NCBI GenBank assembly: GCA_905147135.1
Contig: LR990039.1
Span: forward strand, 30,935,708-30,999,707
Length of the DNA stretch: 64,000 bases
Direction of reading: 5' to 3'
Source: Blastobasis lacticolella
Taxonomy: Eukaryota; Arthropoda; Insecta; Lepidoptera; Blastobasidae
A program made the position numbers and the translations under genes. Positions 2,967 through 59,399 of this stretch are shown one piece after another (position 1 is the first letter of the stretch; every line of letters starts with the position of its first letter). The notes beneath the pieces were generated by a model. That model was not told the DNA's origin. It searched no databases and was given only the letters and a program-made list of their open reading frames with translations.

Positions 2967-3952
2967 TCATCGTTCATTATTATATTGTGCCCTTCTTTTA
3001 TTCACGATTTTACGCTTCTTCGGCATAGGTCCCTTGGATAAATTACCTTTTTCACGAAGTGCATTTAACAATCTGATTAAATTCACATTATTCTTGTTAA
3101 CTGCCTTGTTTAAGTCGCCATGGAAGGATTCTGCCACATTATTCGTCCTTTGACGTTCTTCGAAGACAGTTTTGTACCTTTTGATTTTCTTATTTAACCA
3201 AACGCGACTTATGTACTTCAAGAATTTACCCATTTTCAGAAATACCAATGTTTTTACTTCGTTCCTTATGTATGTCCATGCCTCATTTATAATCCCGGCT
3301 GGTATTAAGGGTAATATAGAACACATTCCGACTACTCTTTTCTCGGGTTTGGACTTTATATGTCCCAATACCTTTGCCTTCTTCCAAATATTTTTAGAAA
3401 AATGCATGTAACAGCCTTTTATCTCTACGCGTGGGAATACTTCCAACTTTGCGTTGATTGCTGCAGTTTCATAGTCGCAATGGTACTTTTTAGGCTCCCA
3501 TTTTGGCTATTGCGCTTTGATTATACGAAGCATTGTGACGTATGTCTCTTGTTTTTTGTCCAAGAGTAGGGCATAAATTAGTGGAACAACATTAGTAATT
3601 TTGTTATCACTCCCAATATCATCGTGCAAAGTAAACAGTTGTACGGATGCGGGCTACATTTGAAAGTGCCATCTCCAAAAAATTCGTCAATGTGGTCAAT
3701 CATTTCTCTTGCTTGGGAGGTACAGAATATAAGTATTCTTTTTTCTGTGTCTCAACTCAGCATAAAATCAAGAAACTGATCAGGCACATCAACTTCGTCC
3801 ACAGATGAAAAAGTTGTTCTCGATACTCCCGCTGATTTTTGCCTCGCGTTATAAAGGGAGTGCTTTAGATTATCAATACTCGGTATACTGTCTATTAGAT
3901 AGTAACCTCTGTCTCTCAACTTTGCCTCGTGTCTCTTGTATAATTGTGGCAT
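2967..3952 (-). pseudogene. MULE transposase, broken into several frames
   Basis: Three minus-strand pieces are recognisable. 3952-3752 is the linker (KRHEAKLRDRGYYLIDSIP). Near 3690-3540 lies FFGDGTFK, carrying the first aspartate of the catalytic triad, then LLLDKKQETYVTML. 3446-2967 holds GCYMHFSKNIWKKAKVLG, with the G-C-x-x-H-F-x-K-x-x-W motif, and RTNNVAESFHGDLNKA, with the N-N-x-x-E-S-F-H motif that normally carries the catalytic glutamate. Frameshifts between 3752 and 3446 break the core, so this copy could move only if supplied with enzyme in trans. Confidence 0.78.
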
Positions 3953-4531: not shown

Positions 4532-6550
4532 TTTACTTTGGTATCGTGTGAGAACGAGAAATATTCACGTGTCAATATCAACGTTTAAATCATCAATAGA
4601 CAATTAATCAAAAGAGGTAGTAATTGCATTGCACTTCAGCATTGATAGATAACCTTTTCCTGTTTATTACCAGTAGTTGTTCCACAGATACATTCAATTC
4701 CCAGTAGTACAACTAGTTGGAACAAGGAAAGAAATACTCGAGTTGAACCATTGGTAAAGATATTTCCCCATATAACAACCAGTTGAACCATGGGTAACTT
4801 TACTTCTCCGTAGTACAACCAGTTGGACATCACAGTTGTACCACGGGTCGGAAGCGATATAAACAACCGGCATTGTGCAGAAGAACCCTGCTAGGGATTT
4901 TGTTTTTGGGAGCAAACTCCCAAAAAGACACTCACATAGACAGACATAATATTCATTTGGCAATTTCTACAATATAAATAAACAAAATATGTCTTACTAA
5001 CATAAAAACTACGTGCAAACCAAGAACACATTCCCATATCAAACCATTCAATGATCTATTCCTACCATAAAATTGACATAATTGTCAATGTCAGGTTAAC
5101 ACACCCATGCTAATTTAATATTATACAACCTTATTCAAAAGACTGGTTAGTTCACGACCGTGTCTGTGAACCGACCCGTCACAAAGATAAGTCAAAAGAT
5201 TATTTGGTGCCAACTCTATGCTCCTACTCAATCCTTATGGCCCACTACAAATATGACAGCTGTGACAACTCATGTCACGCCATATCTTATATAGGATAAC
5301 TTTGGCTGCTGTATCCGAAAGCGATATCGGATTTAGAATTCTCCCGCAGCATCACTATCCTACCTCAACTAACCTATCGCCCCAAATTCGGCATATTCCT
5401 AGGACAAACCAGGTAACTTGTCAGGTATACAAGCGTTCATGAACAGGTGAACCGGTTGGATCACCCCTTCACTTTATAAGGTATGGACCACGAATTTATA
5501 TCCTTCAAACGAAACCCAAAGCGATCGTCCATATACTGAAAAAGCGATTGCACCCAAACAGACGAATATGAAGTATGGTTCCTTTCTAAATAGAGAAATA
5601 ATCTGACAAACCCTTAGAACTTCCCCTATTATTCATAATGTTCATAAAAAATATTTCTTTTGAAACTTAAATATTTACAAATCATTCTCTTAAATATTTG
5701 ATATGGTTTGCAGTAAATTTGCTGAATTTCTTTCAGCCGAATAACGATACAGCTGGTGCACCACCATCGAAGAGATGTCACACTCGGAACACCTCGCAAT
5801 TGGCTCTCATTTACGATCGGTGTAGCGCACTACTCAACACATAAGTGGCCAGCACACGAACTCGGACATTGTGAAGTAATCGCCACATGGAAAACACAAA
5901 GACATATTTTAAAACTTATTCATTAAATAAAGGGTAGGGAAAGAAACATACACCATACACGATTAAATACCATTGAGACCAACTCGAATACATCTTTTTA
6001 TTTTATTCCCAGTATAAATCTGAACTATTCATAATTCATCACTAATGGTAAGGTATCTAAAGGCTGATACTTTCCATAAGTGAAATATCATCCAGACCAC
6101 CTAAGTGGATTACACACTGGAAACCATAGGAAATCCTTACTAGAACCTCTAATGTCAGACCCAATATAACATGATGATGACCAAAATCCAATTAAAAATA
6201 CCCGCATATAACAACACCTGACCTCTCTATCCAATTTACTGTACCTCTTTGATAAACAATGATCCTTTGAAGTGATTGACCAAAAGTGATAAAAAAACTC
6301 CCCTTATAAAAAAAACTGCAAGGTTTTCGGACTACACCAATATACAATACAATACCTATGACCAGTTTCCACCATGGAACTTACTGCCCGGAAACAAACC
6401 ATTGAATAGCGATATCCACTGCCCATCTTCGGACGCTGCCTATACTACCCTCGGGCGAACATGGAACTTCTTCATTCTGTTCACATGCACCACCCACCTG
6501 CGGTCTGGCTGGCCTTCTACCTAACTTCCTGACCATATAATTTCTGTTGT

Positions 6551-8080: not shown

Positions 8081-8438
8081 TGTAACACTGGGGGGTTCAA
8101 GTTATATTCGTGAAAGTATAAGAAGAATGGTACAAATACATACACTTACATCTAATTCAAATGGAACACATTTGAATTCCTACCTAGCCAGTGCTGTGTG
8201 CTCATAGAGACAGGCTAAAGGCCTGCGTCCTACTTGCTCCGACCTGTCTAAGCCTATAGGCCTATATCCTACTTGCTCCAACCTACTCAACCGACTAAAG
8301 CCCCGGTTACCCTATGGTAGCACCAACCTAACCCGAACGCCTACCTAACTTAGAGCCCGTCCTAACATAAGGCCTCCAAAAGCCTACCTGTCTTAGAGCC
8401 CGTCCTAACTTAAGGCCTGCCCGAGCACACATGCTACA
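8081..8438 (-). repeat. LTR copy 2 (5' LTR of the gypsy-like element)
   Basis: Same family and orientation as copy 1, TGTAACACTG to CATGCTACA. It lacks about 40 bases near the start (the aaggactctaaataaaaatg part) that copies 1 and 3 retain. Its outer flank is gtac, the same tetranucleotide that flanks the solo copy at 30910. Confidence 0.8.
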
Positions 8439-8513: not shown

Positions 8514-11500
8514 TAGGCCAGTCAAATCTTACATCTAAAACGCAAAGCGCGATGTAACGCTGCATTTTTGATATGTTATTTGGACCCCTTAAGAGAGTGT
8601 GAAACTACATTTTGCAAGCAAAAAAAAATTGTGCTTCCTGCGTAATACGTGAAAAACTGCGAAATTTCGGGACTTTTTTCACTTTCAGGTCTAAAAATAA
8701 AAAACTATGCATATTTCGACCAACAAAGCTTAATAGCTTTTAAAATTGATTAAATTTGCAAGGATTTAAGCCCAAACACAGCTCTATAAAGCGTATAGCA
8801 ACCAAGTTATGACTCTTTAAAGATAGTCTATTTTTCCCGAAAAACTACAATTTTAGGTTTTGCTCCTGTCCGGAGCAAATTATTGGTAAAACTGCTAGTT
8901 CTATTATAAAAAAAATTAAAAGGGACTTGTAGTGCATTTAATTTGCTTTAAATGATGTACAGAACGAACTATGTGAGACTAATGGTTCATTCACAATCTT
9001 AAAAAAACGAGGAAAACATATAAATGTATTAAAAAAAATAAAGTATTTATTAAGGTAGGAATAACAATTATACATATTATGAATACTTATCTGACATAAT
9101 ACAAATTATGAATACTAATCTGACATAATACAAGTTACAAATAACAACTAACTTAATAAAACAATCACTAATTTTGTCCAAGGTTCACGGTATTAGAACT
9201 ATTAGGAATGCTGCTCAGAAGGCTGGCCGTATTGTCCCCCGTCCGAAGTGGAAGTCAGCCCTATGGGTCTATAGTAATATCGACCAAGCGCTTAGCTAGC
9301 TCCCGAAATAGGGAGTGTGCGCATGGACACTAGAATTCAAGGGTTTCCACACCAAACGGCGTAAATATGTGGTTTCCACCAACACTTGCGCCGTTTGACA
9401 CTTTCAGTTGAGACGGCATCGGGCCGTTACTGTGCAAGGGTATCGCTACACGTGTCCCTGACCAAACGTCATCCCAGCTCCCAGGGCAGGAGTGTCATCC
9501 CTTCGGGCCTCTTACCGTCATCACAGGCCAAACCACCTGGCTCAAGCTTAGCGGGTGCTCCAGCGGAGGTGAAGGCCCAGCGGATGATATAGTGCGTAAC
9601 GCGGTCGAGAAGTGTCCCAATATATTTAGAAGACATTGCCTGAAGTTAGAGACCCAATTTACACTCGCCAGCAGCCCAGCATACGGGCACGCTCTGCAGA
9701 GTTGGTTGGTGCGCTTAAAAGATTGCTTTGCACCAATCTGCAGCAAGGCTCGCCCCATAGCCGCTGTAAACAGGAATTTTTCGGGAGCTCGACCTCCAGA
9801 AAAGCCTCGTGCCAAAGGCATTTATTTGGTCTCGATAGAATACGCCGTAATAAAAGTCCCTAGTTTAGATAATAACTTCTACACTGGATACTGTGAATTA
9901 TGCACCGAGGACAGAAAAGCTGACAGGGACACATCTGAAACTTTCCTAACGCCTAGACCTCCATATACATCTGTTTCCAAGATGAATTATCGAGATTTAT
10001 GTTAATAATTAAAATATAAGAATATGTTTCACAACAATAGAATTGGAATTTTTTCTTTAATGAAGTCCGAGAGGGATTAATCAAAACTACCTAGAAGGTT
10101 AAGTCACGCCTTGTCGACGACATTGTAATAGCAATAGCGTCAAAAGCTGCAGAAATGGTACCAGCCCTCGGACTGCACACCAATCACCCTCTACTCGCGT
10201 ATGAGGAGCTGAAAATCCTGTAAAACCGTGTTCGCATCCCCTCGTAGGATCCCGTGTTCTAAGTAGGTACACGTTAAATTTAGAATTTAGCTTCTCGAGA
10301 GTCGCCTATTGCTGGCAGCCGACTACTGATTGCAAGAGGTAGCCTTTGTATATAAGATTGCTCGGCTTTTTGTAGCATTGCCGCATCAACTTATAAGCGG
10401 CCGGCAACTTAGATCGTATTTGACCAAGCAACGCGCCTCTATCGACGTAGTTGAATCCATTTTTACGTCACCCTTCAGTACGACTTCAACACTATTACTT
10501 TGGAGGAAAGTTCACATGGCGTGGACGGCGGCTTCGCAGTCACCTTTAGATCCAAAGTAGAATTGGATATGCTGGAAGTAATTTGCTGGGCTGGGGGGTG
10601 GAAAACCGGCGTCGGTAGGTAGTCCCTACCGCAATAGGACTAATGAAACGTGAATGAAACCATATTTTTTTTTGTTTTAGGCGCCACAAAGAGTACTTAC
10701 TAAGGACTGTTCTACCTAGCCTGCCAGTGGTGTCGAGAATTCGTTTATAGAGGCTTGTTCCTTGAAGCCCATAATGTCGTCGTCGTATGAATGTAGATAC
10801 AACACTACAGCCAAGTAATGTCAAAAAAATACAATATTACGATTTCAATAGAACTCGGAAGAATGTCAGTAACCTATGGTAAAACTAAGCAACATCAAAC
10901 TAACATACAAACGGCCCTGGGTTCAGTTATTGAATCGCTCGAATCAAAGCGAGCAATTCATTGGCGAGGTTGACAAATATCTTCCACTGGACCCTGAGAC
11001 TGATAGAACGGTCTCGGAAGCTGATTGGCACCTTGTGATGGTATTTTATTATTATGAAACGTAATTTCTAACAAGCATAGCATTAGTACTTTGGTACCAT
11101 TCACACAAATAAGTATTCACAGAATTCTTCAAAAAACCATTTTCAAGATTGTAAGTAAACTATTAGTCTCACTTAGTTCGTTTTCTACTTTAATGAAAGT
11201 ATATTAAATGTACTACAACTTTCTTTTAGTTACTTTTATCATAGGACTAGCGATTTTATCAATAATTTGCTCCGGACGGGAGCAAAACTTAAAATTGTAA
11301 ATTTTCCGGAAAAATTGACCATCTTCGAAGAGTCATAACTTGGTCACTGTACATTTTGTAGAGCTGCGTTTGAGCTTAAATAGTGGAAAATATAATGAAC
11401 TTTATAAGCCATTAAGCTTCATTGGTCGAAAAATGCATAGTTTTTTATTTTTATACCAGAAAGTAAAAAAAGACCGAAAATTTCGCAGTTTTTCACGTAT

Positions 11501-11641
11501 TACGCAGGAAGCACAATTTTTTTTTGCTTGCAAAATGTAGTTTCACACTCTCCTATGGGGTCCAAATAACATACCAAAAATTCAGCGTTACATCGCGCTT
11601 TGCGTTTTAGGGCCATTTTTTTGTAAGATTTGACTGGCCTA
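8514..11641. mobile_element. Long terminal-inverted-repeat DNA element of unrecognised superfamily
   Basis: Left repeat 8514-about 9003 and right repeat about 11144-11641 are inverted copies, roughly 80% alike by eye, sharing stretches such as gcgcgatgtaacgctg, caagcaaaaaaaaattgtgc and gcgtaatacgtgaaaaactg. Both ends read taggccagtcaaatcttac. The element is flanked by att on each side (8511-8513, 11642-11644), a possible 3-bp target duplication. The 2.1-kb interior has no frame I recognise: open stretches at 9592-10005 (+) and 10876-11064 (+) show no known motif. It may be non-autonomous, or may carry a decayed protein of a family I cannot identify. Confidence 0.72.
9076..9133. repeat. Two tandem copies of a 29-bp unit
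   Basis: The unit attatgaatacttatctgac..ataatacaa occurs twice head to tail (9076-9104, 9105-9133) with one substitution. It lies just inside the left terminal repeat of the long-TIR element. Confidence 0.85.
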
Positions 11642-26400: not shown

Positions 26401-29400
26401 CCCGCGGATGCTTAAGTAGTTTTTTACAATTTATCAGTTGCAGGAATTGGAAACTCTTTCAATTCTATGATGATTTTTTTAAAATTCTATATGAAATGAT
26501 AAGTATCTAACTTGTTACGATGTTTGCTTTTCAACGAGAAACCGGGCAAATTTTATAGATGACTGCGTCTTCGGAAAAAAGGCCTTTGCTAATTATTCGT
26601 CCATTTGAAATGTCCATAAGTGATTATAAAGTTTTATTAAATCAGAGCTGAGGTTTCAAAGTTTGGGATTGTTGGTCTTTGATTTGTCAATACTTGAATT
26701 GTGTGATATCCTATGGGCGGCGTTGGATGATCACCTGTAGAGGGTGTCTATGGGTGGCGGTGGATGATCACTTTCCAGCGCTTGCCCGTTATCCTTACTC
26801 TATTATAATAAGTTCTCAAATGAAAAACATTTTCCATAACAAACTTTTATTTTAATTTTATTATTAGTAAAAACACGATAGGGTTGTTGTTACCTTGTTG
26901 AGCTCATTCGTTTCTATGACCACCTTCCGACCCGACTCCTGTATCAGGCCAGCTCTATGATTCCATATTAATGCATTGTCATCCAAGTGACATAGGTGTA
27001 CCAAATTTAAGCTTAATTTGGCTTACAAAATTCCAGGACATACAAGTCATCATCATCATCTTCCTTCCAAGCGGTTGATCCCGGCTTCTGTCAGGGTCCG
27101 TTTTCCGACTCATTCTTCACTACTTCACTACTTGCGCATCCTTGCGTCGTATGCCACTGGCTCTCGCATCCGACAAATATATTATGCTTATATTTGTAGA
27201 AGTTAAATACAAGCTTGTAAAAATAAACATATACTTGCCACCAGGTGAAGGATCTGGCCGCAACGAAATACAATTACACCTTCGGCAAGGACGAGGTGGT
27301 CTCCACGTTTGTTGCGGCGTTCTACGATGCGGTGCTGCTGTATGCGCTCGCGCTGAACGATACCCTCCACGAAGCCGAGAACCGGGGGGGACCTCTGGAT
27401 GGCGCGGCCGTCATGAAGAAGATGTGGAACCGCACTTTCAATGGTAAGTTGGTGAACGAGTCGCCATTTACATATAACCTATAGTCGTGTCACTGTTGCG
27501 GTCACGTTTCCCTGTAGGTAGAGGCACCTGTTATTACACCTGCTGATGCTTCTGGTGTGGCGTTTGTTGAGACACCTGTTCAGACACTGGCGGAAGTCGT
27601 ATTTGCTGTTAGCGTCTATTTGTGATATTTGTTGGACTACTTAAATTTTTCGTCATGTCAAGTAATCATCATAAATTATCAATAGATTATCATCATCAAC
27701 CGATATCCGCCCTGCTGGCACAGTCTCCTTACAAACCATTGCGAGGCATCAACCACGTTTGCAAAGTTAAATGTTTCTAAATGCCTATAATAGATTTTTT
27801 CAAGCTGTATCTAGACGTAGTTAGGTACATTACATTTTACACGAAGAATGCTCATCTTGGCGTTAATGTCACGGTTGTCCACTCGCGCACGAAAGCCCAG
27901 GATCCGCCTTGACCATGATCCAGGATTTGGCAGGTGGTATTTACAGTGAAGCGACTGCCATCTGACGTCCGTGCCCCTATTAACCTGACAGATTGGAGCA
28001 TGAACACTACTAATACCTACAATGATTTCAGGAATAACCGGCGAAGTGAAAATCGATGGCAACGGTGACCGCGTGGCCTCCTACTCCCTTCTGGACATGA
28101 ACCCAAACACCAGTAAATTCGAAGTAAGTCATTAATCATAATCAGCCATGATGTTTAGGCAAAGATAATGTGCAGGGCTATTTCTGGTTCCACTTACGAC
28201 GTCATAACATGTCATTCAATCCGTTAGAAGGAATGATTTGGGTTTGTACGACCTTCGGAGAGTGCCGATAGTTTTTAATCTACGGTACGGAACCGTTGCA
28301 ACAATAATTAATATAGGTACGTCAATCCTCAATAAGTCATCATGGAGTGCGTCCACGTTCCAGTCACGACTCAAAACTATATTAACGGATAATACTTTCT
28401 ACAAATTAGATGAATTTTTAAGCCATATATTTTAAATGTACATATGAAATTATTCCAATAATTTTACTTTGTCGTATCATTCAATTATGTATGCTTTTCT
28501 TCTGTTAAGAAAATGTAGCCGTAATATGAATTTAATGAATAAATAAATGATAATGATGATGATGATAGATTCACTCCGGCCCACTGCGATTCTAGACGTC
28601 TGTCTTGTTATTTGCTTTTATGAAATTTTAGTGTAACTATGACAAACATAACTTTGCTCACTTTGAACAATATAACTATAATATTGTTCAAAGTGAGCAA
28701 AGTTATGTTTTACTGAGAGTGATGACTTTACGCTGACATGAAACATAAAAAGAACTTGAACTCGTGAGGAACATACATTTTTCTCTCCAGGACAAAAGAT
28801 GTCACGTAAAAGCTCTTACTTAGGGATTTATTTTTAGTGGATATTTATATCATTGCCTCAAAAATTATACTATATATAGTTAATACTTATGTCATATTTA
28901 GTTCCGCTAATAAATCAATAAACCCTCAATCAATTAATCTCTGGCCACCCTGTGATGGGATAGCATACGAGTCTGTAGACAATATTGTTACTTTTTGAGT
29001 AGATACTTAGTGCTTGGTAGTGTCATTCATTTTATACGACACTACTGGTAATACTTCATTTAGAAGACTATCATTTGATCCTGTCCATAGCCAACCACCA
29101 TTACTCTGTATAGTAGGTACTTATTTCATATTATTAGACCATTATAAACTTATCTAGATAAAAATAGGTACCCATGCCGTTTAGTTCAATAATTTCACGG
29201 AGGGAAGTAATTCCCTCCATCGCTTCGCTCGGAATAAGTTTCAGGTAAGACTTATAACGGAACTAAGTTCGCGAATGATAAAAATACAGCTCGGCTATAC
29301 ATTTTGGTCGAGTAAAATGTACCTAGCTGGTTATTTGTTTCTATGTTGTGAGTAAAGCTAGAATGCTCTTTGGGGAAATTTCGAACTACACGCTGTAGAC

Positions 29401-32400
29401 TCATTAAAAGATGTGAATAATAATAATAAAAGAATAAAAAATAAGTTGATTTGTCTTCACGTAGGGGCATTATTTGGAGATAAAAACGAAATCTTTTTGC
29501 ACTAGAACCTGCGTGAGAGACTAGTGTATGCACTAGTTTATAAATACCTGTTTTACAGACCAACAGGGCCCCTAAGTCAAAATATCTGAGTCCATGAATC
29601 GTAGGCGTTGTCGGCGACACATACACTTTCCATCAGTGGTAAAAATCAAAGGTATTTGTTGTTACAAGGCTCCAATAATTATACAGATACTAGCGACCCG
29701 TTCCGGCTTTGCACGGGTAGTAAACAACTAAACCTTCCTTATGAACCACGTGAAAATCCGTTCATAATTTTTGAGTTTATCGCGAATATACAGACAGAAT
29801 ACATTCGCGATTCGTTTTATAATATGCTGTAATAATGACGACTGCATTAGTACAGTTATGACACAAGGTTTGTGCATTTTACGCACAACATCGTCTTCAT
29901 CTAAGAAAGGTACGCCAGACGTACATTTTTAGGTAGAACCGTGCCTATAATGTAGTAGAACATCCGCGCACGTTTACGGGCGAAGCAAGTCGTACATTGC
30001 GCGAAACCTGTTCAGTGCAGACCTCACACCAACTTCTAATTAGTGGAACTTTACACGCTGTTCTTTCATGGTAGAGTGCTCAGATTCAGATGGCTTTATT
30101 TATTGTTTTCAGTAGGTATAGTAGAGCAAGCTTTATTTACATGAAGTAGAACGAGTTATATTTTACCATAATATTCATTAGATACTTTACGGGCGGACAA
30201 ACGAGCAAAACACCCCGATGGTTAGCGTTAACTGCCGCCCATAACATCTACAACTCCTGCATTTAGATTACAGGCAAGAAAAATGTAGAACCGCGGGTGC
30301 GTCGTCACTGTGAGGACTAATATGAAATGGCTCATGCCTGTAATTGCGCTCGCTATCTTATCCTTGAAACCGTAACACAACAATGCAAGCATTGTTGCTT
30401 GGCGGCAGAAATAGATAAGGGGGTGGTACTCACCCAGACGGACTCTTCAGGCTTGACAGAGTCCTACCACCTGATTACCAGCTTACCGTCCGAAGATTCG
30501 CCTACGTAATAACCTGAATTACAACTATAGAACTGTAAAATTTCAACAATATCGCTTGCCATCCACTCCCATAAACGCTTCTTTTTACAAGTAGGTACTA
30601 CGAAAAAATTTATTTATTTTATTTATTTATTTATTTGTTAGCGGTAAGCGGCAGTTAGCGGCCAAGCGGTATGGAAAGTGGTCGCCACTGTCTATAGACA
30701 TTAACAATACGGCTATCTACAATTCGTTGCCCACCTCTATTATACATTGCTCTGGCAGCAATAAGGCAACTGCCCCTGCACTGCCAAAGTCACGGTTCCC
30801 TAAATCTCCACCCCATGTAGCTCTGGAAACCTTTCCCACCGGCAGGAATACAATACTATTCAAATTAGTAGGTATTGTTTAGCTGCAGTATTCTGTAAGG
30901 TGAAGGTACTGTAACGCTGGGGGATCCACCGACTCTAAATAAAAATGCAATTGCTTAATTAAAGTTATATTCGTGAAAGTATATATAGAAGAATGATACA
31001 AAATACATAGGATACGTTACATCTAATTCAAATCGAACACATTTGAGTTATTACCTAGCCAGTGCTATGTGTGCTCATACAGACAGGCTAAAGGCCTACA
31101 TCCTACTTGCTCCAACCTACTTAACTGACTAAAGCCCCAGTTATCCTATGGGAGCACCAAGCTAACCCGAACGCCTACTTAACCTAGAGCCCGTCCTAAC
31201 ATAAGGCCTCCGAAAGCCTACCTGTCTTAGAGCCCGTCCTAACCTAAGGCCTGCCCGAGCACACATGCTACAGTACTATCCCAGTTTGGGGGTTCCAATT
31301 CGATTGGGAATACTGTGGTATTGAGGTTGAGTGGTTTAGAGGTACCTAGGCACTCATTTTACATTAACATAGTAAACACCATTGAATGGACGACCATAAT
31401 CAGACAAAGAGCCCGTTGTGGTGTGAACGTCCTCCTGATTACATTAACACAGCTAATACTACCTAAACAAGATTAGTGTAAAATGCGACAGATTACAGCA
31501 CACTAGCTTTTGCCCACGTATTTTCGTCCGCGTGTAAGGTTTTGCCAAGTTTGCATTTTTTTAATTATAGCCTAAGTATAAATTATTCTAGTAGCTATAT
31601 AAGCGACAACACTTCGTCAAAATCCGGTTAGTAGTTTTGCATGAAGGAATAACTAACAACATAACAGACTATCGCCTTTGTATTAAGATAGCGAGGAATG
31701 TCAACCGATAAGTACCAAAATGAACATTTATGGCTCTGATTCCGCCTTTTTATCGAACATTCCAAAAAGGTTTCCCAACCTTACATTTTAGCCAGACGTC
31801 ATTTCCACCTCAAACTTTTTAAAAAGATCTCGGTATTAAATATCTTTTAAAATAGTTCTTCAGTGCGTAACTGATCCAGCCAGCAGAGTCTGCTGATCGA
31901 TACTTCAAGCCGTAATCTAAGACTCCGCTTCCCCTGAAGCCCTTAACATATCGGAACTTGCAGTTTCATTCGAGTGGCAAATTCCGTGGCCAACTATGTT
32001 CGAGGCCTTTTGATGTTCACGAGTGCAGATATCACGGGCTGGTAGCCTCTTTTACGGAATATAGGTCAACAGGCGTGGTGGAGCGATAACTTGAGAAATG
32101 TATCCGATTGCAAGCCAGGCAAATTTTGTGGCTAGCAGCAGCCTACTTATTTGCCTTTATTCGATTCTAAATTTTAATTCGCTCACCAGTACATTCAGAG
32201 TTTAGTTAAACTACTCTTGGTATCACCGAATCAAATTCTCCTCCATAAAAAAACAAGATTCAAATATTTATACAAAGCTAAGACATTCCTCGGAAACAAA
32301 TTCGGAACAAAGTTTAATCACTTCCGAACTTGTGACATCTAGATGACAGATAATATTGCTTTTTAAGCGGTGGCGGACTTTTCAGACGAATTATATTTGT

Positions 32401-35400
32401 AGCACCTTCGTGTCCCCTACAGATTTATTGATCCCGCTCCGATCAGTAGCCGATGTAATTAAAACGGAGATTCTCCAGGCCGCTATGGTAAAAATGTGAG
32501 GCATGTATCAACAGATCCTTATTATATTAAAACACAAATGGACAAGTTTAATAAATTAATACATGAGGGAGGCTTATACGACTTCAGAATCATAAGAGAA
32601 ATGGGCGAGAGACACAGAAAGTGGCGCAAAATGAGTTGGCGAGAAAGAGAGTTGTTGCTTCTCCATATTCATCTTTGTGTGTTAATGTGTAACAAAGAAC
32701 TTGTAGCGAGAAAAAGAAAGAGAGAAACGCCACACAAGGTTGATGTTGAAATGCCCGGGCCAAGCAAGGTCAGTAAGGTAGAGAAAGAAGAAGTCCCCGA
32801 AGTATCAATGCCTGCTGGTGGCAGTGACGCAACACCTTCCGTTTCTGGGATAGCAAGCTCTTACGAATCGGATTGGTCAAGGGAAGAGGATGTTCTGATA
32901 GAGCTCACCGCTATGGAGTCTGACAAGGATTACAGATTTAGCATGTTAAATTATATGCCACTGGTGGCAATAACAACAAACCATGTGGCTCAGGAATGGA
33001 GGACGGAGACTCCGACAAAGACATGGGACATAGTGGACAAAAAGAACAGAAAGTTTATCATGATACGTTACACTGGCAACAAGGACAGAGCTCTAGAAAA
33101 ATATTACCAGGCAAAGGCAGAAGTTCCAGATAACTGTGGGTTATACCTGATCAAATGGGAGGACACGCAAGGAGAATGGATAGATCTTCCTGACATGTAT
33201 GCAAAAGGGGAAGAAAAAGTCAGGAGATTCCTACTAAAAAGAAAGATATTGCTAGAGTCCATGGGAGTGAACACGGAATTTTTCAAATTAGAAAAGGGGG
33301 GAATCCAAGATTTGTTTCCAAGCCAATGGATAAACCTGTGTGCCGATCAATGGATGGAGGATTTATTAAAAGATCAGTTCGAGAAGTGGACAGCAGAAGA
33401 ATTATATGTTAGGGAGCCAGCTCCAAAAACAATCACAGCCAAAATTCTATTAGAACATCTGGACAACATAGTAGGGGACTCTGACAGGACCTCAAAATTG
33501 TTTTACAGAGGAAAAATATTACCAGAGCACTTAGTACACAATATACACATAGAAGAGAGAGAAGATTCCTCCTGTGTTGATAGAGTGGTTTGTTGCTTGA
33601 AAGAACAGTTGGAAGGTTTACAGGAGATACGGAAGGAAAACATGCATGAGAATAGCAATTTACACCCTGATATTCTGCCAAGCTTGTTGAAGTCATGGGA
33701 ATGCTCAAACAAATCCACATTCAACTTCATGAATAACATGAAGTGCCCAGGACACAAACAAATAGAGTCTGCTCTAGGAATAGGAGAGAAGAAGAAGACA
33801 TATAGAGAATACATAAAGGACATGAAACAACCGGAAAACCAGGAAATAGCCAAATGCAAGTATCCTGAGTGGTACGAAGAAATGTTGTGTGGACTAGAAG
33901 AGAACCACTCAATGTACATGACCCATATTCCTATGAGCGACCTTGTAGACACTCCTCCGACCGATGGACATCCAATAGCCTTGATAGTTGAGGAAGCAGT
34001 TTCTGAGATGACTGAGAAAATATTGCAGTCCAAGGCAGCATTAATGACCTCTAAGGTAATAAATTTATATTCAAGACTGGGTGGGGCCTATGGACACAGG
34101 GTGACTGAAACAAACAAGGAAAAAAGAAATATAGCAATGTTTCCTTTGGTTTCACAGATGTCGTTGAAAGGGGAGAAAAACACACAAAATGTTGGGAAAA
34201 TCAGGTTGTGCTCAGGATTGGTTGTGAGAGCTCCATCGCATGCTAGAAAGCCCACGGACAGGATAGGGCTGCTGACCATAGAAATGTTAGAGAGAAATGG
34301 GATCTCAGAGCTGTTTTGCTCAGAGCTGAAAGGAGCTTTGGTCTATTTCTGCAAGAACATATTAGTGGTTGTGAGACAAAATTCGGTAATGAAAGAAGAC
34401 AGCGCCTACAATACTTTCGTTTCAAATGCCATGTTCATACCAATAAACATGTTGGGGAGCATGACACTCGAGAATCCCAATGTGTCACAGTCAGAAGATA
34501 TGGTGGAGTACATAAGAAATATATCTCACAGAGGACAAGCATGGTTTCTTGATAGGTACATAGAAGGTCTCTGCTTTTCACTGCTAGGCAATTCAAGAGA
34601 TGAGGGCTATTTTGCACACATCAGAAAACTGTTTATGGTGCTTTTCACCTGGCGGATAAAACAATCGTCCGCAAGCTTTGATATTGCCAAGTTCTGCAAT
34701 AAACGTGGTACAAGATAGACGTGATCTTATTTAGCTCCCTATTTAACACACATCACAACATCACATTTGTGATGTGAGGGAACAAGTGCTCGGTACTTGT
34801 AATCTTTCTTCGGCTCTGAGCCGCAATTAATTCGCCCTCGGAACACAATGTGGGTCGCTCCGTCGGCCGTCTGAATCACGCGTAGATGTAAGAGAGGGGA
34901 TCGACGTCGGCTCATCATGCACCCCACGCGTCGCCCCTATTAAGTGGGACTGCGAGAAGGCGGGAAGGCTCGTTAACGATTATTTACTAGCATAGCCGCC
35001 GCACGCGACGAAAATTCACCGAAAAACGTTGCGCGGGCGGTGGCAGTGCACTTTTCAAATTCAATCCCGGTACAATCTCACCCCACTCGTGGCGCGACAT
35101 TGTTAACTCGGAATTGGGTTAATTCTATTGGATGCAAAGCGGCCGAAGTGGAAAATCTCCCGATTGAATGTTACATGTGCTCAATCGTGTTAGCGGAGTA
35201 ATACTTTTTTTGTAGGAGAGGTGCTCCCTTGAGATAAAATGTGCGGACGTTTGGGTGACTTGACAGATTTGAGGGTTCACTCATACTTTTCACTGTGTAT
35301 AGGAAAATGCTGGCCGAATCCCAAATGCTTTACCGATACAATAACAAGATGAAATGTTTAATGCTTGCTAAGGGCTTTAATTTTAGCCATGTAACATTTA

Positions 35401-38400
35401 ATTATTGCTGCCTGACGAACTCCTCAGGCACGGCCCTCTATAACTTGCTGCTTTAGAAATAGAAATATTTATTTGTCTATAAATTAACAGATTTGTATCA
35501 ATGTATTTTTTAAATAAAAGCTTCTAATAAAAATGGTCCATGACTCAGCGTTTGGGTGTAGGTAGAACCCACACCCGCGGGTATTCTGTCATGGCCAGAC
35601 TTAAGGTTAAAAATTAACAACGTGAAGTTTACATATACATACATACACATTATACAAATAATATGGCAAAAAAAATTAAATTAAACTTTAAGTATAAAAG
35701 TATAAAGGTACTAAGAGATATACAATTATTATGGCGTAACATTAATTATATAAAATAATATATGACACAAAAAAAATTAAAAAAAATTTTGGGTATAAAA
35801 GTATTACTAAAAGAATTAGATAATTGAACATCACTAGAAATCGTGGTCTAGACCTTCACTCCAGCTGGCCGTAAATGGTTTCCCAGCAGCCATTTAGCAT
35901 ATTCCTTGCGGAATGTAGGAAGCTTGAAGGATGATGTTGGATTGAATTATAAGAACGTTGGAACACCCACATGATCTAAATGTAATAAACACCCACCCTC
36001 AGCTTGAAAATAAATTCACACATCGAGACCTCAAGTCGTCGTTACGGCCAAACGTTTCACTGGCAGGCTGGAACGCCCAAGGGATAACAACGTGTCTTTG
36101 TTACGGCGATGAAAACACGGTGCGATTCACAAATCCCTTTATACGGTACCAACGGTGAACCTTTCGACACCGCTCGTTGTCGTTGACCCGAGAAATTACT
36201 CGGAACACGTAATAAGTGACAGCAACTTGGGCTCATCAGTTTTATGAGGGACAACCCGGAGCTACCCACGAATTAGCCGCGCGCACCCAGAGGTTGTCAA
36301 TTGGAACGAGCCGACAGGGCCGTTGAAAGCTGAAGGATCACCCACGACTGGGCGAGGCGTCAATTCCGGGCGATCACGCTATTAGCTAATGTAAAGATCA
36401 CATCGTGTTTAGCCCAATTCATGTAATCTATTAGCCGTCATCCATTCGGATCGGAGTGTGTTTGATTGAGATCAAATCCGGATCTATTTACAAAGGGAAT
36501 TGACATAAATAGTTTAACATCTCGTAGGGATAAGTGGAAATTGGTTTAGAAAGGAGAGTACTTTAGCTCTCGAATTGATTGGTAGAATTAGAGCCGGCGT
36601 TTTCTTGCGCTCGTTCAATTTGGTAGCGTGGAACCCGGTGTGTTTAACATCTCGGAATGAAGACAATTGAAAACGGGGTATCTATTTTTGTTGGAGGCCT
36701 CATAAACACGGGTGCACGCAATGAAATTTTAATGAGCTCGAAACACAATAGGGCGCAGACAATGGGAGTCCCGTGCACGATGGAAAACGTTCTACAGTAA
36801 CATGGAACGTGTTTCAGTTTAAATGGCGCAAGCTAATGAAGCAGAGTGATTTTGAAATGCATTTACGGGATCCAGCATGTGAGTGTGGCCTGTTCAAGCT
36901 CAATCATGTTCGACGGGATTGAATCCACAACATTCTTGATTAGAACGCGTCATTAACATAAAATGGATACACGAATATAAACTCGTACGAATGTTATGTG
37001 GGAGAGGGTTGGTAGCTGCTGCGCATATAGATATATCCTGCTCGTAATTCTTATCTTTATACTTATTGAATCGCGTTATCTTCACGGTTTTTATGGCGAA
37101 ATTTATGGCTGTTATAATATAACAGAATACGGAGTGAACTCACCGGGTCCAAAAAGTAATCCCATTATTGAGTATGAAACTGGCTTTTTTAAATAAAATT
37201 ATTGCAAATTTAAATTAAAACAGCGCTGTTATCCTCAGCTGAAATAAAAAGACTTTTAGTTATCGATACATTATATATTAGTAGGTTACAAGTTTTTGTA
37301 GTTATGAAAATATTATTTGTCATAATAAATACTTTCGTTCTCTAAATAGGACATTGTTTCATAAATACTTACTTTAGTTCACTAAATAGTAACATTTACG
37401 GAAATAGTTCTTTGTTTCCTGAAACTACTACCAATCTTTCTATTCGGGGGTAGGACTCTGTCAAACTTGACGAATCCGTCTTGGTGAGTACCATCGCCTT
37501 ATCATGCACATGCATTTTTGTGTTCCTGTTTGAAGGAAGGCATATGGCATTTTATTTTAGTCCTTACAGTGACAACGCACTGCGGTTCTGCATTTTCGTT
37601 ACATGTACTGTAATCTAGCATAAGCCGTAAATGTCGACAGTTACTACATACGGTAGTATGTATCTGACAAGGTAGGCTACCTGCTGGTTTGTCACGAAGT
37701 GGCATAAAACACATTCATCTCTATAGACTAAATGTGGTCCAAAAGTGGACTGTTATTTCAGATTATTGACTAGGAAACAAAGCAATGAAAAAGAAAAATA
37801 ATAAAATCACATAACAGCGCCATCTAATGGCGAATTGTTTTTTTTAAATTCTTTATTTATGTTATTAACAAGTATAAATCCATTTCGCGGTGCATTGGCT
37901 ACATTTTTATTAACCATAATACAATTACTATGCAATTAAACGAATGAATGAATGGTAAGAGGAATTTAGTATGGGTTACGAACCACCTTAAAGTTTACCC
38001 CTTAGCTTTGCCTCCTTATAGCGGCATAGAAATAGATTGGTTTGCCCAACTTGTCTATGTCTGTAATTACTATCTACTACTATCCCTAGCTGGCTATTAG
38101 AAGCTGTTCAAAATAGCAATTATAATTTATGAGTGACACTTTAATCTTATGTTCTCTCAACAACAGACGAATGTTGTATGTTTAAACATGAGATCTATGC
38201 CTATTTGAGATATGTAGTACACTTTTGTGGACTTATATGTTTTAATTACATGGTTCCAACATACAGTAATGTTTTCAAGAGTTTCACTACTTTGATCCAA
38301 ATTGCACGTTACTTATATAACTAAATTGTCAAATTTTAATTTTCTTTCTATTATTAAACTAAAGTGGATAGAAAAGCTCATAGGTATATTTTCAATGTCT

Positions 38401-50400: not shown

Positions 50401-53400
50401 ATCTTGGTATCCACCTCCTATGTGTAATAATTATGTAAGTGTGTAACAAAAGGTACTACACTCAGGTAAGGCACTCAATTTCAAACGTTAATCCATTCCG
50501 AGTAATACTGAATTAAACATTTCAACGGTAGCTTTTTTGTTTGCAAAATTGTATGAAACGTGAATGTTTCTGAATAGTCTAGAGTTGCGCTGTCACCGCC
50601 TCTTGCAAATGCTCTTAGATCTTAATGCAATCCTTTTTCTAGACGGGATACTCCGACGAAGCGATGTCGTTGCCCGGCGACAGGCAAGTGTACACGCCCT
50701 GCGGCTTCTACAAGGGTTGTCGTGTTGCCATCAAGAAAGTGGACAAACAACGCGTAGACCTTACCAGACCGCTGTTGCTGGAACTCAAGAAGATGAAAGA
50801 TCTGGAGCACGACCATCTAACCAGATTCTACGGAGCTTGCGTCGACCCCCCACACTGTTGTCTGCTGACCGAATACTGTCCCAAAGGCTCCTTGCAAGAC
50901 ATCCTGGAAAACGAGTCTATCAAGTTGGATTGGATGTTCAAGATCAGCCTTATGCATGACATCGTCAGGGTGAGTGCTTTCTTCAGGCAGATTTTTGGGT
51001 CGCGGTGATTTGTGATCAGTAGACTGGTTATCTTTTGAAACAAACCTAGGTACTTACTTTTCAATATAATTGTTTTCTTGTGCTAAGTAGTTGATATAGG
51101 CACTACGGCGGCTGATAAAGTTACTTATAAGGATTAATTGCTTCGATATACCTATGTATCATATTTATTCCTATTTGTCATTGTTATAGGCGACATACCG
51201 TTTTCCATAGTGGGCTAACTGTTCATTTGTCACCGAGTAACATCACTACATATTGTAAATAAAACAAAGTTCCACGCCGCGTCTGTCTGTCTGTTCAAAA
51301 ATACTGAACGAATTTTCATGCGGTTTCTATTGATAGATAGAGTGACTTAAGAGGAAAGTTTAGGTGTATAATTTGTTAACCGTGCGAAACCGGGGCGGGT
51401 CGCTAGTAAAAAATAAATTCAAAGTGACAAGACTTAAATAATTGATAGGTATATATAATATAAAAATATTAGCCAAATAATATTCAGTTGCTAAGACAGT
51501 TAACTTATAAGTCGTCCCTCGTGTTTAGGAAGTGTATTCGGAAAACACGTTCCTGATTTCATTAGCTTAATATGTTTTCTCCCAACACCAACAGAAGCCC
51601 TCGAGGGTCGTGCATATATTCTCCCAATATTAATTGATGTCCTTCACGATTAAACAATTCTGCCCGCTACCAGACATTCATTCTTCACACCCCTTAATGA
51701 AAGCTCAGTGATCAGAACCTACCTTTCCAAGTACCTTTTCAAGTAGCCAGAACGTTTACTGATGATTGGATAGAATTATCGATTATCATTTCACTCGTTC
51801 AGAAATTAATTTATTCCTAAAACAGACAAGAATCAATCGCTCGATATCAAATATTTTTCATACATACTATCATAAAATAACTACTAACTAAAGCCTCTCT
51901 ACAAATGTCAGCTGTAGGTATTAGTCTAGCAATTAGGCAACATAAAATGTATGGGAGCGGTTGATGTCAAAAATTTGGATTATTTCTATTAGAATTAAGT
52001 CGGTTAATAGCCACCGCTGACTGGCAGGTTTTGGGGGCACAGGATCCATCAGCTTATCTGTGAACTGACTTTTGTCGCCACCGGTGCACTCGAGCGTACG
52101 AAGATGCCGTAGACACTGATAATCGAATTGCATCTCATCTCACCAGCCATGGTTCCTAATTGAAGGTGAAGGTAGCCAGCGCAATTACAGGCATGAGGCA
52201 TTTCATCTTAGTCGTCACAGTGACAACTCACCTGAGGTTCTGCGGAATCGTAGATGTTATGGGCTAAGGGCTCAGATCTCTCTACTCGTTTGACCCTGCA
52301 TAGAATTAAAAAAATGGCCATTTCACAGATAAGTTGATGGCACTGTAACAATAGAGTCTTATGTAAATCCTTGTGTATTTTTAACACCACATTTACAACG
52401 CACAGGGCATGAACTATCTGCACAACTCCGACATACGATCCCACGGGGCGCTGAAGTCCAGCAACTGCGTTGTGGATTCACGCTTCGTACTGAAGATAAC
52501 GGACTTTGGACTTCACGCGCTGAGGACTTACGAATCGGACGCGAGAGCTCACAGCTTCTGGACCCGTGAGTAAAAAATAACAATACGAAATACCACAGAA
52601 TAATCATCGTCCGCATATCAGCTGAAAGATGCCCACTGCTGGGCATAGATCTCGCCCAGGGATCGCCATAAGCTTTTATGTCCTCCTGCCAAGCGGTCCT
52701 GTGCCATCCTTTATGGAGATCTTACCATCGGTCGTCGGCCTACCTAGCGGGAGGTCTACCCATGCTGCGTTTTTCTATAAATAGATAATAAATAAATAAA
52801 TAATCGTGGACAAATTCACACAGCGCCATCTAGCTCCAAACTAAGAAAAGCTTGTACTATGGGTGCTAGATAACAAATTTACTACATATATACATTTCAA
52901 TACATACGTATTATACATAGTATATAGAACACCCAGACCCGTAACAGAAATTATAATTCATCGTTTCAATTTCTGCCTGATTTTATGTGATGTGTGCTAA
53001 AGCACTATCTAGCTAATCAATCATATTTGCTAAACTATCATCCGCATCATCACTTAGACAAGGTGGGATGGCTGGCAGACAAATACTTGGCTATAATACT
53101 AGAATTAATACTTATTAAAAATATAGTAGGTACTGCTCAAAAATAAGAGCTGCGTCACTATATTGTCATTACTCATTCTAACACTAACATTACTGGTAGT
53201 GGGATCGATGGTAATTTCATCTCAATCAAAACGTTGTTAGTGTTGATGACTCCACCATAAATTTACAACCTTGTTTGTATTTGTTGACCTAAAATATTCC
53301 AAGCTTCCAAATACCAATTACATAGTTGTGTACCCTTCTACAGTACGAGTAAAATAGCACGCATTTGAGTTAACTGTTTTAATCCGATCCACACTGTGTG

Positions 53401-56400
53401 TTCCAAGCCGGCTTAAGGACCCACATCACATAATACATTTAACTGACCCTTTGTTCACAGTCAGATGTAATAAAGGCTTCGCATGAATATTATAATTAAT
53501 TTAGGCATGGTGTCATGAAAATCTTATCAACCTTCAGCACTGTCACATTATATTAAACCGTGTAAATTATTCCCAACCTTGAGTCAAGTGTGTGTTCTAC
53601 GTATAATAAAATGCTTCAGAGGGCGCCGCGTTAAAGTCACCTTTATTTTCTAAGTACTGTGTCTGGATTTGGGCCTGTATTTAATTCTGAGATTTCAATT
53701 TATTATTGAAATTGATAATTTTGCGATGACGTATGATATATTTAATAGTTTAAGTTTATTGCAATGGAACTTTGTTAGCAACTGATCCCATGAATTCGAT
53801 GATACGTAGTCGCAAAAGTAATAATTTCAATCACTGAAATCAGAAAATTGTTAGCAACAGAGTTACGTAATTAGCCTACTGATATTGCTAAAACAGATAT
53901 CACGGTCAATTTCTGTATTGCTATGATTTATGACCTATTTTGTAATCGAATTTTACGTAGCAAATATAATATTACAAATAGACCCATTTTTGGAGTACGG
54001 GTTGTCTTACAACTAGTGTCCGACCGAAACTTCGGTTTCGGCTTCGCCACCTTTGGCCAAAAAAACCAACTTCCTGCGAAGTGTTTTTATTATATTTGAC
54101 AAATAAATTGCAAGGTAATTATTTTTATTATGTCTAGATCTACTTCTAGAGATGATTTAAATTGCCTTTCTATACTATACAGTCCGTAGAAGTCTTTAAC
54201 ATTAAAGTTAATACCTAAAAATAATTTAGGTAAGTATATAATTAATTGTATCTTGTAGACAATCTTGAACAATATTTCTGTTTGTGGCGATAGCTGATTA
54301 ATCGGCTTCGACTTCGAATAGAAATTGACCTTCGGTGGTCATTACCTACAGCATGGTCTAATAGTATACAGTTCTACTTAGAATAATTTTTGTCGTGAAC
54401 AGTGGTCATACTAAAGCGGGCTTCACTATTTCTTTAATATATGGTTTAAATTATCTTGTTCTGAACATTGACTAAATAATTGTAAATTTTGGACTGTTAC
54501 TTCGCTTATCTACTTTTGATGCTGTCTGTACGTCTAGCTATTTAGTCTAGATATCGAGCAGGTGCCATGTTCACATAGAATTCAAATAACGAATGAACTG
54601 TAGAGTTGTCTTACCTAATGCGTAATAAACAAGTTCTGCAGTAAAAACTAAGCGTGCATTGAATGAATGAGCGTGAAATAGGTGATTTAAACTATTTTAT
54701 TGGATTGTAAATAGAACGAAACTGAATGCGTTTACGTGTAGATTGTCAATTGTGGTGCAGTTATCAATTCAAAGGTAAACTGTAGAAATTTCATTCCAAG
54801 CAGTCTACGCGGGAGCGAGTACTCCGCTAGAGCCTCAAAAAGCCGTTGGCGAGAGGTTATATGCCGTTTATTAAAGAACGGCGTAGTTTATTAACTGTTT
54901 GGTAACAATTAAAACAGGAAACGTTTCTTTCTCTCTCTCTTCCTTTGTCTCATTCTCCTACAATTACACATACCGGCCAATTTAGCGGGACAGAAAAAAG
55001 AAGGCACATGAATATTTTTGTTATCGTTTCCCATAATTTTGACTGTCTGTTCAATTGGCACTGAGTAGCATGTAAAAGTAATTTATATAGAGTATCGTTA
55101 CAATTTAACTCGCAGAATTTTACCCACAAATTTTGCCCACAGATCTGCTGTGGACCGCTCCGGAACTTCTTCGCATGCAAAACCCTCCCCCAGAAGGAAC
55201 CCAGAAAGGCGACACCTATTCTTTTGGAATCATCATGCATGAAATCGTGAATCGTCAAGGTGTATTTTGGACTGGCACCGGAGCTGAGATATCTCCTAAG
55301 GGTAAGTCTGGAAAGATTGCCATGACTGTATGTCTCGGACATTAATGCACTCAGGTATTCGGGGGATCAGTAACAGGCAACCCACCTGCTTGTAAAAGTT
55401 GAGAAGTTATCTAAAAAATCGAAACTGCTAATTTAAAATCAAATTGAAGTATTTACTTAGCTACCTGAAGTAAAAAAGGAGAAATATACCGGGAATAGCG
55501 AGATTCATGACACCTATATTTTTAGAATAACGTGACCTTTCTTCCTTACTATTTGGTGAACCCCTACCCACTTACATCTTTCAATATCGCTGAGCTTCGA
55601 CTTTGTATTCACCTACTTCATGAATGTGGCTATGTCTGCTCCTACGTATGCACCAGAGACGACGCTTTTCAAAGCCGCCGACATCAATACCTACTCACTT
55701 TTTTCAACAGATTTCAAATATAATAGGTCGAAATATTAATCAGAGTATTATTTACACGTTGTCTAACGTTGAGACGGCTTCTTTGAATTTCCATACTTGA
55801 ATATTTGTGTGTTGCATTAATCTTCGGTACATTGCGTCTCATCTTAATATTAGCTTAGTGTAAGATTATAGAGTGAGATTGAATCGCTTGATCTTGAGAT
55901 TAAAGCGTCTCAATGTATTTTCCTTGTAAAGTTGTTGCCTTATATTTTACCAAATTAGTACGTTTTGGTATGCCTATACCCCGGACATTCTAATCTGCTA
56001 GCGTTGCCCTATTTATCTACTATGCGATGCTAAGTGAATGTGTTTTCGGTATGTTGACTTTCAGATTATATGTACTTAATGGTTGAGAGAAAGCTCATTG
56101 TTACTGACAATGAGCTATTCTGCCTTATTCGTGTGGCTTGGTCTCGAATACATTAGCCAGAACACAAAATTCCTTCACTTGTCGTTACGTAAAAGCCACG
56201 ATATTTGCCCTCAGCAGAAGCATCTCAACCTAGCCTCCCACTCATACATATCAATCAATCACAACAACACTAAAAGTGTATGTGCTGGCGCATATTTATG
56301 AGCTTCTAACGCGAATTTCACCCCGCACACGTCACATTTCGAGCGTGCTCCGGCAATAGTGTGAGACTCGATTGTATTCCGTTATCGTTTGGTTTCGTTT

Positions 56401-59203: not shown

Positions 59204-59399
59204 GTAAGATTCTAGGTTTCTCTCTCTTTCTCTCCCTTTTCTCTAGTTTTGCTGTATAATGAAGTTAGAGAAGGACGGGAGCGATCGTTTCGTTTATCAC
59301 TTCGGATTCAACCAAAGAGTTATAGTATAGCCGCATCTCGTTTAGTCGCGGAGGGATATCCGTATTTATGTAAACAGGTACTAAAATAAATAAATAAAA

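Follow-up and report, generated by a model that had tools for sequence, protein, structure and literature searches.

Sequences derived from orthomyxoviruses have already been described in arthropod genomes, among them quaranjavirus RdRp elements in Bombyx mori, Melitaea cinxia and others (PMC4384744), elements in a firefly (PMC6191289), and PB1 and nucleoprotein elements in ticks (PMC10675110). The locus analysed here resembles these in being an orthomyxovirus gene within host DNA, but where the passages concerned name the gene it is RdRp/PB1 or nucleoprotein, whereas our window (the whole 64-kb stretch of moth DNA that was analysed) holds an unbroken PA; most arthropod viral elements, as described in PMC4384744, have disrupted frames. 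Orthomyxovirus-derived elements of insects are thus already known, and a nearly whole open PA is an added example. An unbroken PA element is not named in the open-access full-text literature that we found, although one could have been published elsewhere.

The nearest full-length relative is the PA of Lepidopteran orthomyxo-related virus OKIAV1731 (unclassified Orthomyxoviridae, taxid 2746277), known from its database record only; the study behind the OKIAV names warns, in the part concerned, that endogenous copies are possible among them (PMC6932829). The two sequences share the start codon, the order and the length of the homologous stretch, together with a conserved His and Asp and the replacement of both Glu residues in the endonuclease site, but they are only 38% identical and OKIAV1731 has a last 34 residues that the window lacks. 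Another moth genome assembly also contains a PA sequence, in the Scirpophaga incertulas gene model ACJJTC_016656, and PA elements therefore occur in a second moth assembly. The fragment in that model shares 64% identity with OKIAV1731, across 75% of the searched region, and 37% with the window, across 388 columns. As a separate observation, the model (571 aa) fuses a partial PA with a DDE_Tnp_4 transposase domain, an endogenous PA next to a transposon. The PA frame of the window and its parts are as follows.

32463 to the stop at 34716-34718, + strand: stop-free frame, 751 codons from stop to stop
32463-32537, + strand: open part of 25 codons before the ATG, without visible viral homology (the piece alignment begins at codon 26)
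32538-34703, + strand: PA-homologous stretch of 722 unbroken codons, corresponding to viral residues 1-719 of the OKIAV1731 PA (753)
34704-34718, + strand: four codons without viral homology and the stop, from the alignment of the 3' end
32538-33242, + strand: amino-terminal piece of 235 residues, predicted PA endonuclease fold, with a low-confidence loop at residues 59-129
33243-34715, + strand: carboxyl piece of 491 residues, predicted PA carboxyl-domain fold in its better-modelled part

The first-pass annotation of this DNA had claimed 726 stop-free codons in AT-rich intronic DNA where chance frames stay under about 100 codons. The length holds: on the + strand, the ATG lies at 32538 and the stop at 34716-34718. 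The figure for chance frames was too low, since runs of 150-200 codons are reached here: the runner-up stop-free run in the window has 197 codons, and in 60 random 64-kb sequences with the order-2 composition of the flanks the longest run averaged 150 codons and at most reached 209. The conclusion that the frame exceeds chance nevertheless stands, and with 726 codons against a maximum of 209 a chance frame can be ruled out. As to base composition, the AT-richness of the flanks is only moderate (1-kb GC 0.32-0.46 across the window), and the three 1-kb windows over the frame have 0.41-0.44 GC. An antisense stop-free run of 194 codons at 33503-34087 (- strand), among the second longest class in the window, lies opposite the PA frame and is likely a by-product of the sense codons.

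The assignment to orthomyxovirus PA, for which the lack of a significant match to that protein had been set out beforehand as refuting, is borne out by strong direct homology. Searched against the window with tblastn, OKIAV1731 PA gave a single match of 37.6% identity over 728 columns (E 1.3e-162). A protein search with residues 380-726 of the frame matched four proteins, namely OKIAV1731 PA (42% identity over 99% of the region, E 7.2e-85), the Scirpophaga incertulas protein, and the PA of the hymenopteran viruses OKIAV174 and OKIAV175; a search from OKIAV1731 PA also brings in the PA of Blattodean OKIAV181, Blattella germanica orthomyxovirus 1 and Raphidiopteran OKIAV180. For residues 1-385, the amino-terminal region, the same protein database gave no match at E 0.01, which can be put down to the word filter of the search, because in direct comparison all six 125-residue pieces of the frame match OKIAV1731 PA. 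A tree of the carboxyl piece with 8 rows, rooted at its midpoint, groups OKIAV1731 with the Scirpophaga fragment and places the window as their sister, with support of 100/99. Four separate pieces of the frame scanned with Pfam Flu_PA (PF00603) scored 17.8 bits at best against a curated 23, and OKIAV1731 PA, scanned whole, scored 33.4 bits. PDB searches with two single-sequence pieces of the frame gave no relative of note, but a profile search of PDB did find one, and influenza B PA was aligned. The models predict that the amino end carries an endonuclease fold and that the PA carboxyl-domain fold is present. Two scans of viral contigs returned 2 and 19 stretches that fit the pattern, of which tblastn confirmed none as a close nucleotide relative. 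With 719 of 753 residues open, the element offers a host-linked sample of a sparsely sampled lineage of moth orthomyxoviruses.

The frame falls short, however, of the full-length PA originally claimed, by about 34 residues. Viral homology ends at 34703, and residues 720-753 of OKIAV1731 PA have no counterpart in the frame; the absent end corresponds to the last 34 residues in OKIAV1731, 33 in OKIAV174 and 34 in OKIAV175. A search of 34600-36600 with 50-residue viral ends gave no convincing carboxyl-terminal continuation (best outside the frame, E 0.039). A complete PA gene encoding an intact polymerase subunit can therefore be rejected. In influenza, PB1 is held by the region to which the missing end belongs, and any product would by analogy be predicted to bind PB1 poorly.

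The location in a host intron, also proposed earlier, is supported by protein-domain pieces on both sides of the element. The 142 frames of at least 66 codons outside it were the basis of this survey; 121 were scanned jointly with Pfam and some then singly, in sets of ten.

27242-27445, + strand: ANF_receptor (ligand-binding) piece, Pfam PF01094, E 1.5e-9, profile positions 254-327 of 353
50712-50969, + strand: kinase-homology piece, Pfam PF07714, E 3.4e-13
55145-55255, + strand: kinase-homology piece, Pfam PF07714, E 9.4e-5, 22.3 bits, just below the curated 23.1
58336-58623, + strand: open stretch, likely a host exon, with a DIVGF motif at 58444 (motif scan)
59017-59214, + strand: guanylate cyclase catalytic piece, Pfam PF00211, E 8.6e-18

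Because these + strand pieces, with ANF_receptor upstream and kinase and guanylate cyclase downstream, follow the domain order of a receptor guanylate cyclase, the element would lie in a predicted intron, in the sense orientation, and we infer from the sequence that the flanking pieces belong to one such gene. We take DIVGF to be a cyclase-type motif, and Guanylate_cyc was matched by 2 of the 121 frames in the joint scan, which also gave FLYWCH and RVT_1 matches without an assigned position. Host sequence is thus found on both sides of the PA sequence in one contig, as same-strand domain pieces, which is one mark of a non-retroviral endogenous element. Rfam and tRNA scans of the 64-kb window found none.

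The positions that correspond to the influenza A set of an active endonuclease (His41, Glu80, Asp108 and Glu119) are these.

32664-32666, + strand: His43, at the place of His41, kept; placed by MAFFT alignment and motif position only, outside the profile alignment
32949-32951, + strand: Asn138, at the place of metal ligand Glu80, replaced; MAFFT and profile alignment
33027-33029, + strand: Asp164, at the place of metal ligand Asp108, kept; MAFFT and profile alignment
33060-33062, + strand: Met175, at the place of metal ligand Glu119, replaced; MAFFT and profile alignment

The Glu80, Asp108 and Glu119 columns were confirmed against influenza B PA, and the His41 column was placed by MAFFT alone. 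Two of the four residues are replaced in the window, both of them Glu ligands (Asn138, Met175), so that an active cap-snatching nuclease is rejected and any product is predicted from the sequence to be nuclease-dead. The same two ligands are Asn and Arg in OKIAV1731, which keeps the His and Asp, Ser and Lys in OKIAV181, and Lys and Lys in Blattella germanica orthomyxovirus 1, which has also lost the His; OKIAV174, OKIAV175 and OKIAV180 keep all four. Since both Glu are absent from four of the seven compared sequences (the window and the first three of these viruses), their loss is probably viral and not the result of decay in the host. A described parallel is the amino-terminal domain of thogotovirus PA, in which metal ligands have been lost and, in the account available, only the Asp108 equivalent is common to all (PMC3893164). 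The window would likewise combine an endonuclease fold with lost metal ligands and a retained Asp108 equivalent; unlike thogotovirus PA it keeps a His at the place of His41, the sequences are far apart, and the window is known from sequence. Independently of the window, OKIAV1731, OKIAV181 and Blattella germanica orthomyxovirus 1, which lack both Glu, may be instances of a loss of cap-snatching outside thogotoviruses. The window element adds to the evidence for a loss of the cap-snatching nuclease site among insect orthomyxoviruses beyond that group.

The composition of the element (32538-34703) is foreign to its surroundings. Its CpG o/e is 0.40, whereas 575 overlapping windows of its length taken elsewhere span 0.61-1.33 and 27 windows without overlap have the same minimum, 0.61; its TpA is 0.67 against 0.80-1.19, and its TpG (1.27) and CpA (1.32) both fall outside the range of those 575 windows. 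In 600-bp steps, CpG and AT skew shift where the element lies; one dip in CpG, to 0.54, also occurs outside it, at 30700-31299. Synonymous shuffling of the element gave 17 codon-junction CpG against 33.9 expected (z -4.2) and 29 TpA against 54.6 (z -5.6), and the same procedure on 366 codons of the host pieces gave z 0.15 for CpG and -1.4 for TpA. Fourfold sites of the element show a mild excess of A (87 A against 58 T, p 0.02). The low CpG is not necessarily a viral trait, given that a survey, in the part that concerns them, finds CpG suppression absent in insect viruses (PMC3829696). The excess of TpG and CpA would also fit methylation decay during a long residence in the host. Yet where four or more of six viruses have Arg (15 positions), the element still has Arg at 13 and in no case Cys, His, Gln or Trp. 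Of its 43 Arg codons, 37 are AGA or AGG, which one deamination of CGN cannot yield. Neutral methylation decay is therefore rejected as the chief source of the CpG deficit, while methylation plus long selection is a possible one.

Whether the frame is under constraint can be approached through the columns invariant in six viruses; the Scirpophaga incertulas fragment, partial and endogenous, was left out of these counts. In the carboxyl piece without the missing end (up to residue 718) the window keeps 58 of 68 such columns (0.853), slightly below every virus under the same test (58/60 to 58/65, or 0.892-0.967); with the missing end included the count is 59 of 80. In the amino-terminal piece 13 of 15 are kept, the viruses ranging from 13/13 to 13/19. 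A neutral frame of this kind would not last long. Under a model with an assumed ts/tv of 2 and 0.1-0.2 indels per substitution, the probability that it is still unbroken falls to 5% at 0.7-1.2% divergence, or at 3.5% if indels are ignored. At a moth and butterfly rate of 2.9e-9 per site per generation, the 5% limit would be reached after roughly 2.5-4.1 million generations if indels are counted, against 12 million if they are not. The frame is thus either young or kept, and youth alone suffices; the 38% identity to the nearest virus is uninformative on the age of the insertion. A foreign composition that has not yet faded fits a recent insertion and, taken with the fast expected loss of a neutral frame, such an insertion fits the data without any need for selection.

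We therefore regard it as probable that the locus is an endogenous element derived from an orthomyxovirus PA, likely inserted recently, in the sense orientation within a predicted receptor guanylate cyclase intron, and most likely passive. It could instead be a co-opted gene, its frame kept by host selection, likely for a shortened, nuclease-dead PA that acts against related viruses as a dominant-negative partner of PB1 or of other polymerase parts. Speaking for this are the 726 unbroken codons and the fact that the conserved Arg residues and the positions invariant among the viruses have mostly been kept; low TpA and CpG would also fit a long existence as an expressed mRNA, and insects are known from PMC10636211 to have co-opted other viral elements of non-retroviral origin. 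But the PB1-binding end that such a partner would use is missing, the composition is sharply unlike that of the host receptor-cyclase pieces, and recency alone accounts for the open frame, so that we hold co-option to be unlikely. Its most specific form is a distinctly long shot: that the host keeps, from the intron of a receptor guanylate cyclase, a captured near-whole PA, with a nuclease already inactive in the virus and a PB1-binding end lost at insertion, as a natural dominant-negative inhibitor of related viruses. Between recent capture and co-option the element offers a clean test.

A role as a source of small RNAs, in which the element feeds piRNAs or siRNAs against a related virus and the open frame is incidental, has been proposed for arthropod viral elements, at least in the passages concerned (PMC10675110, PMC10689555). 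This element, however, runs in the sense direction of the host gene and carries the viral messenger sense; RNA from the intron would therefore pair with the viral genome and not with viral mRNA. Elements that make piRNAs are commonly antisense to viral mRNA, the opposite of the orientation here, and we consider such a role improbable. An assembly artefact, in which viral cDNA or an unrelated pile of reads was misjoined into the host contig, would agree with the finding of neither a target-site duplication nor poly(A) at the junctions; but an RNA virus enters a DNA library only if it has been copied into DNA, and what is present is a piece without its 3' end that is joined on either side, without a gap, to sequence of host composition. 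It is very improbable that the locus arose in this way.

Under the favoured reading, a recent and passive insertion, viral RNA would have been copied by the reverse transcriptase of a host retroelement and then pasted into germline DNA. The element retains the 5' end in messenger sense but has lost the 3' end, and neither poly(A) nor a target-site duplication was detected at its junctions. This would make the genomic minus strand, copied from its own 3' end until the enzyme stopped early, the likelier template; viral mRNA primed internally would be an alternative. The longest word common to the junction regions is 8 nt, which 127 of 500 shuffles matched, with the 5' edge inexact, and 34600-35667 contains no run of A of at least 8. 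The element would most likely yield no useful protein and travel as a passive passenger in the cyclase pre-mRNA, its frame open only because there has been too little time for it to break.

Several repeats lie upstream in the window. A frame at 2970-3506 (- strand) has a weak MULE match, below the cut-off. Repeat copies at 1834-2181 and 30910-31220 are about 90% alike over 1834-2040 and 30910-31118, with a third, partial copy at 8195-8386, and the copy at 30910-31220 ends 1.3 kb upstream of the PA element. Long inverted repeats, typical of transposon ends, occur at 2380-2706 and 4533-4855 (95% complementary) and at 8535-9005 and 11140-11610 (86%).
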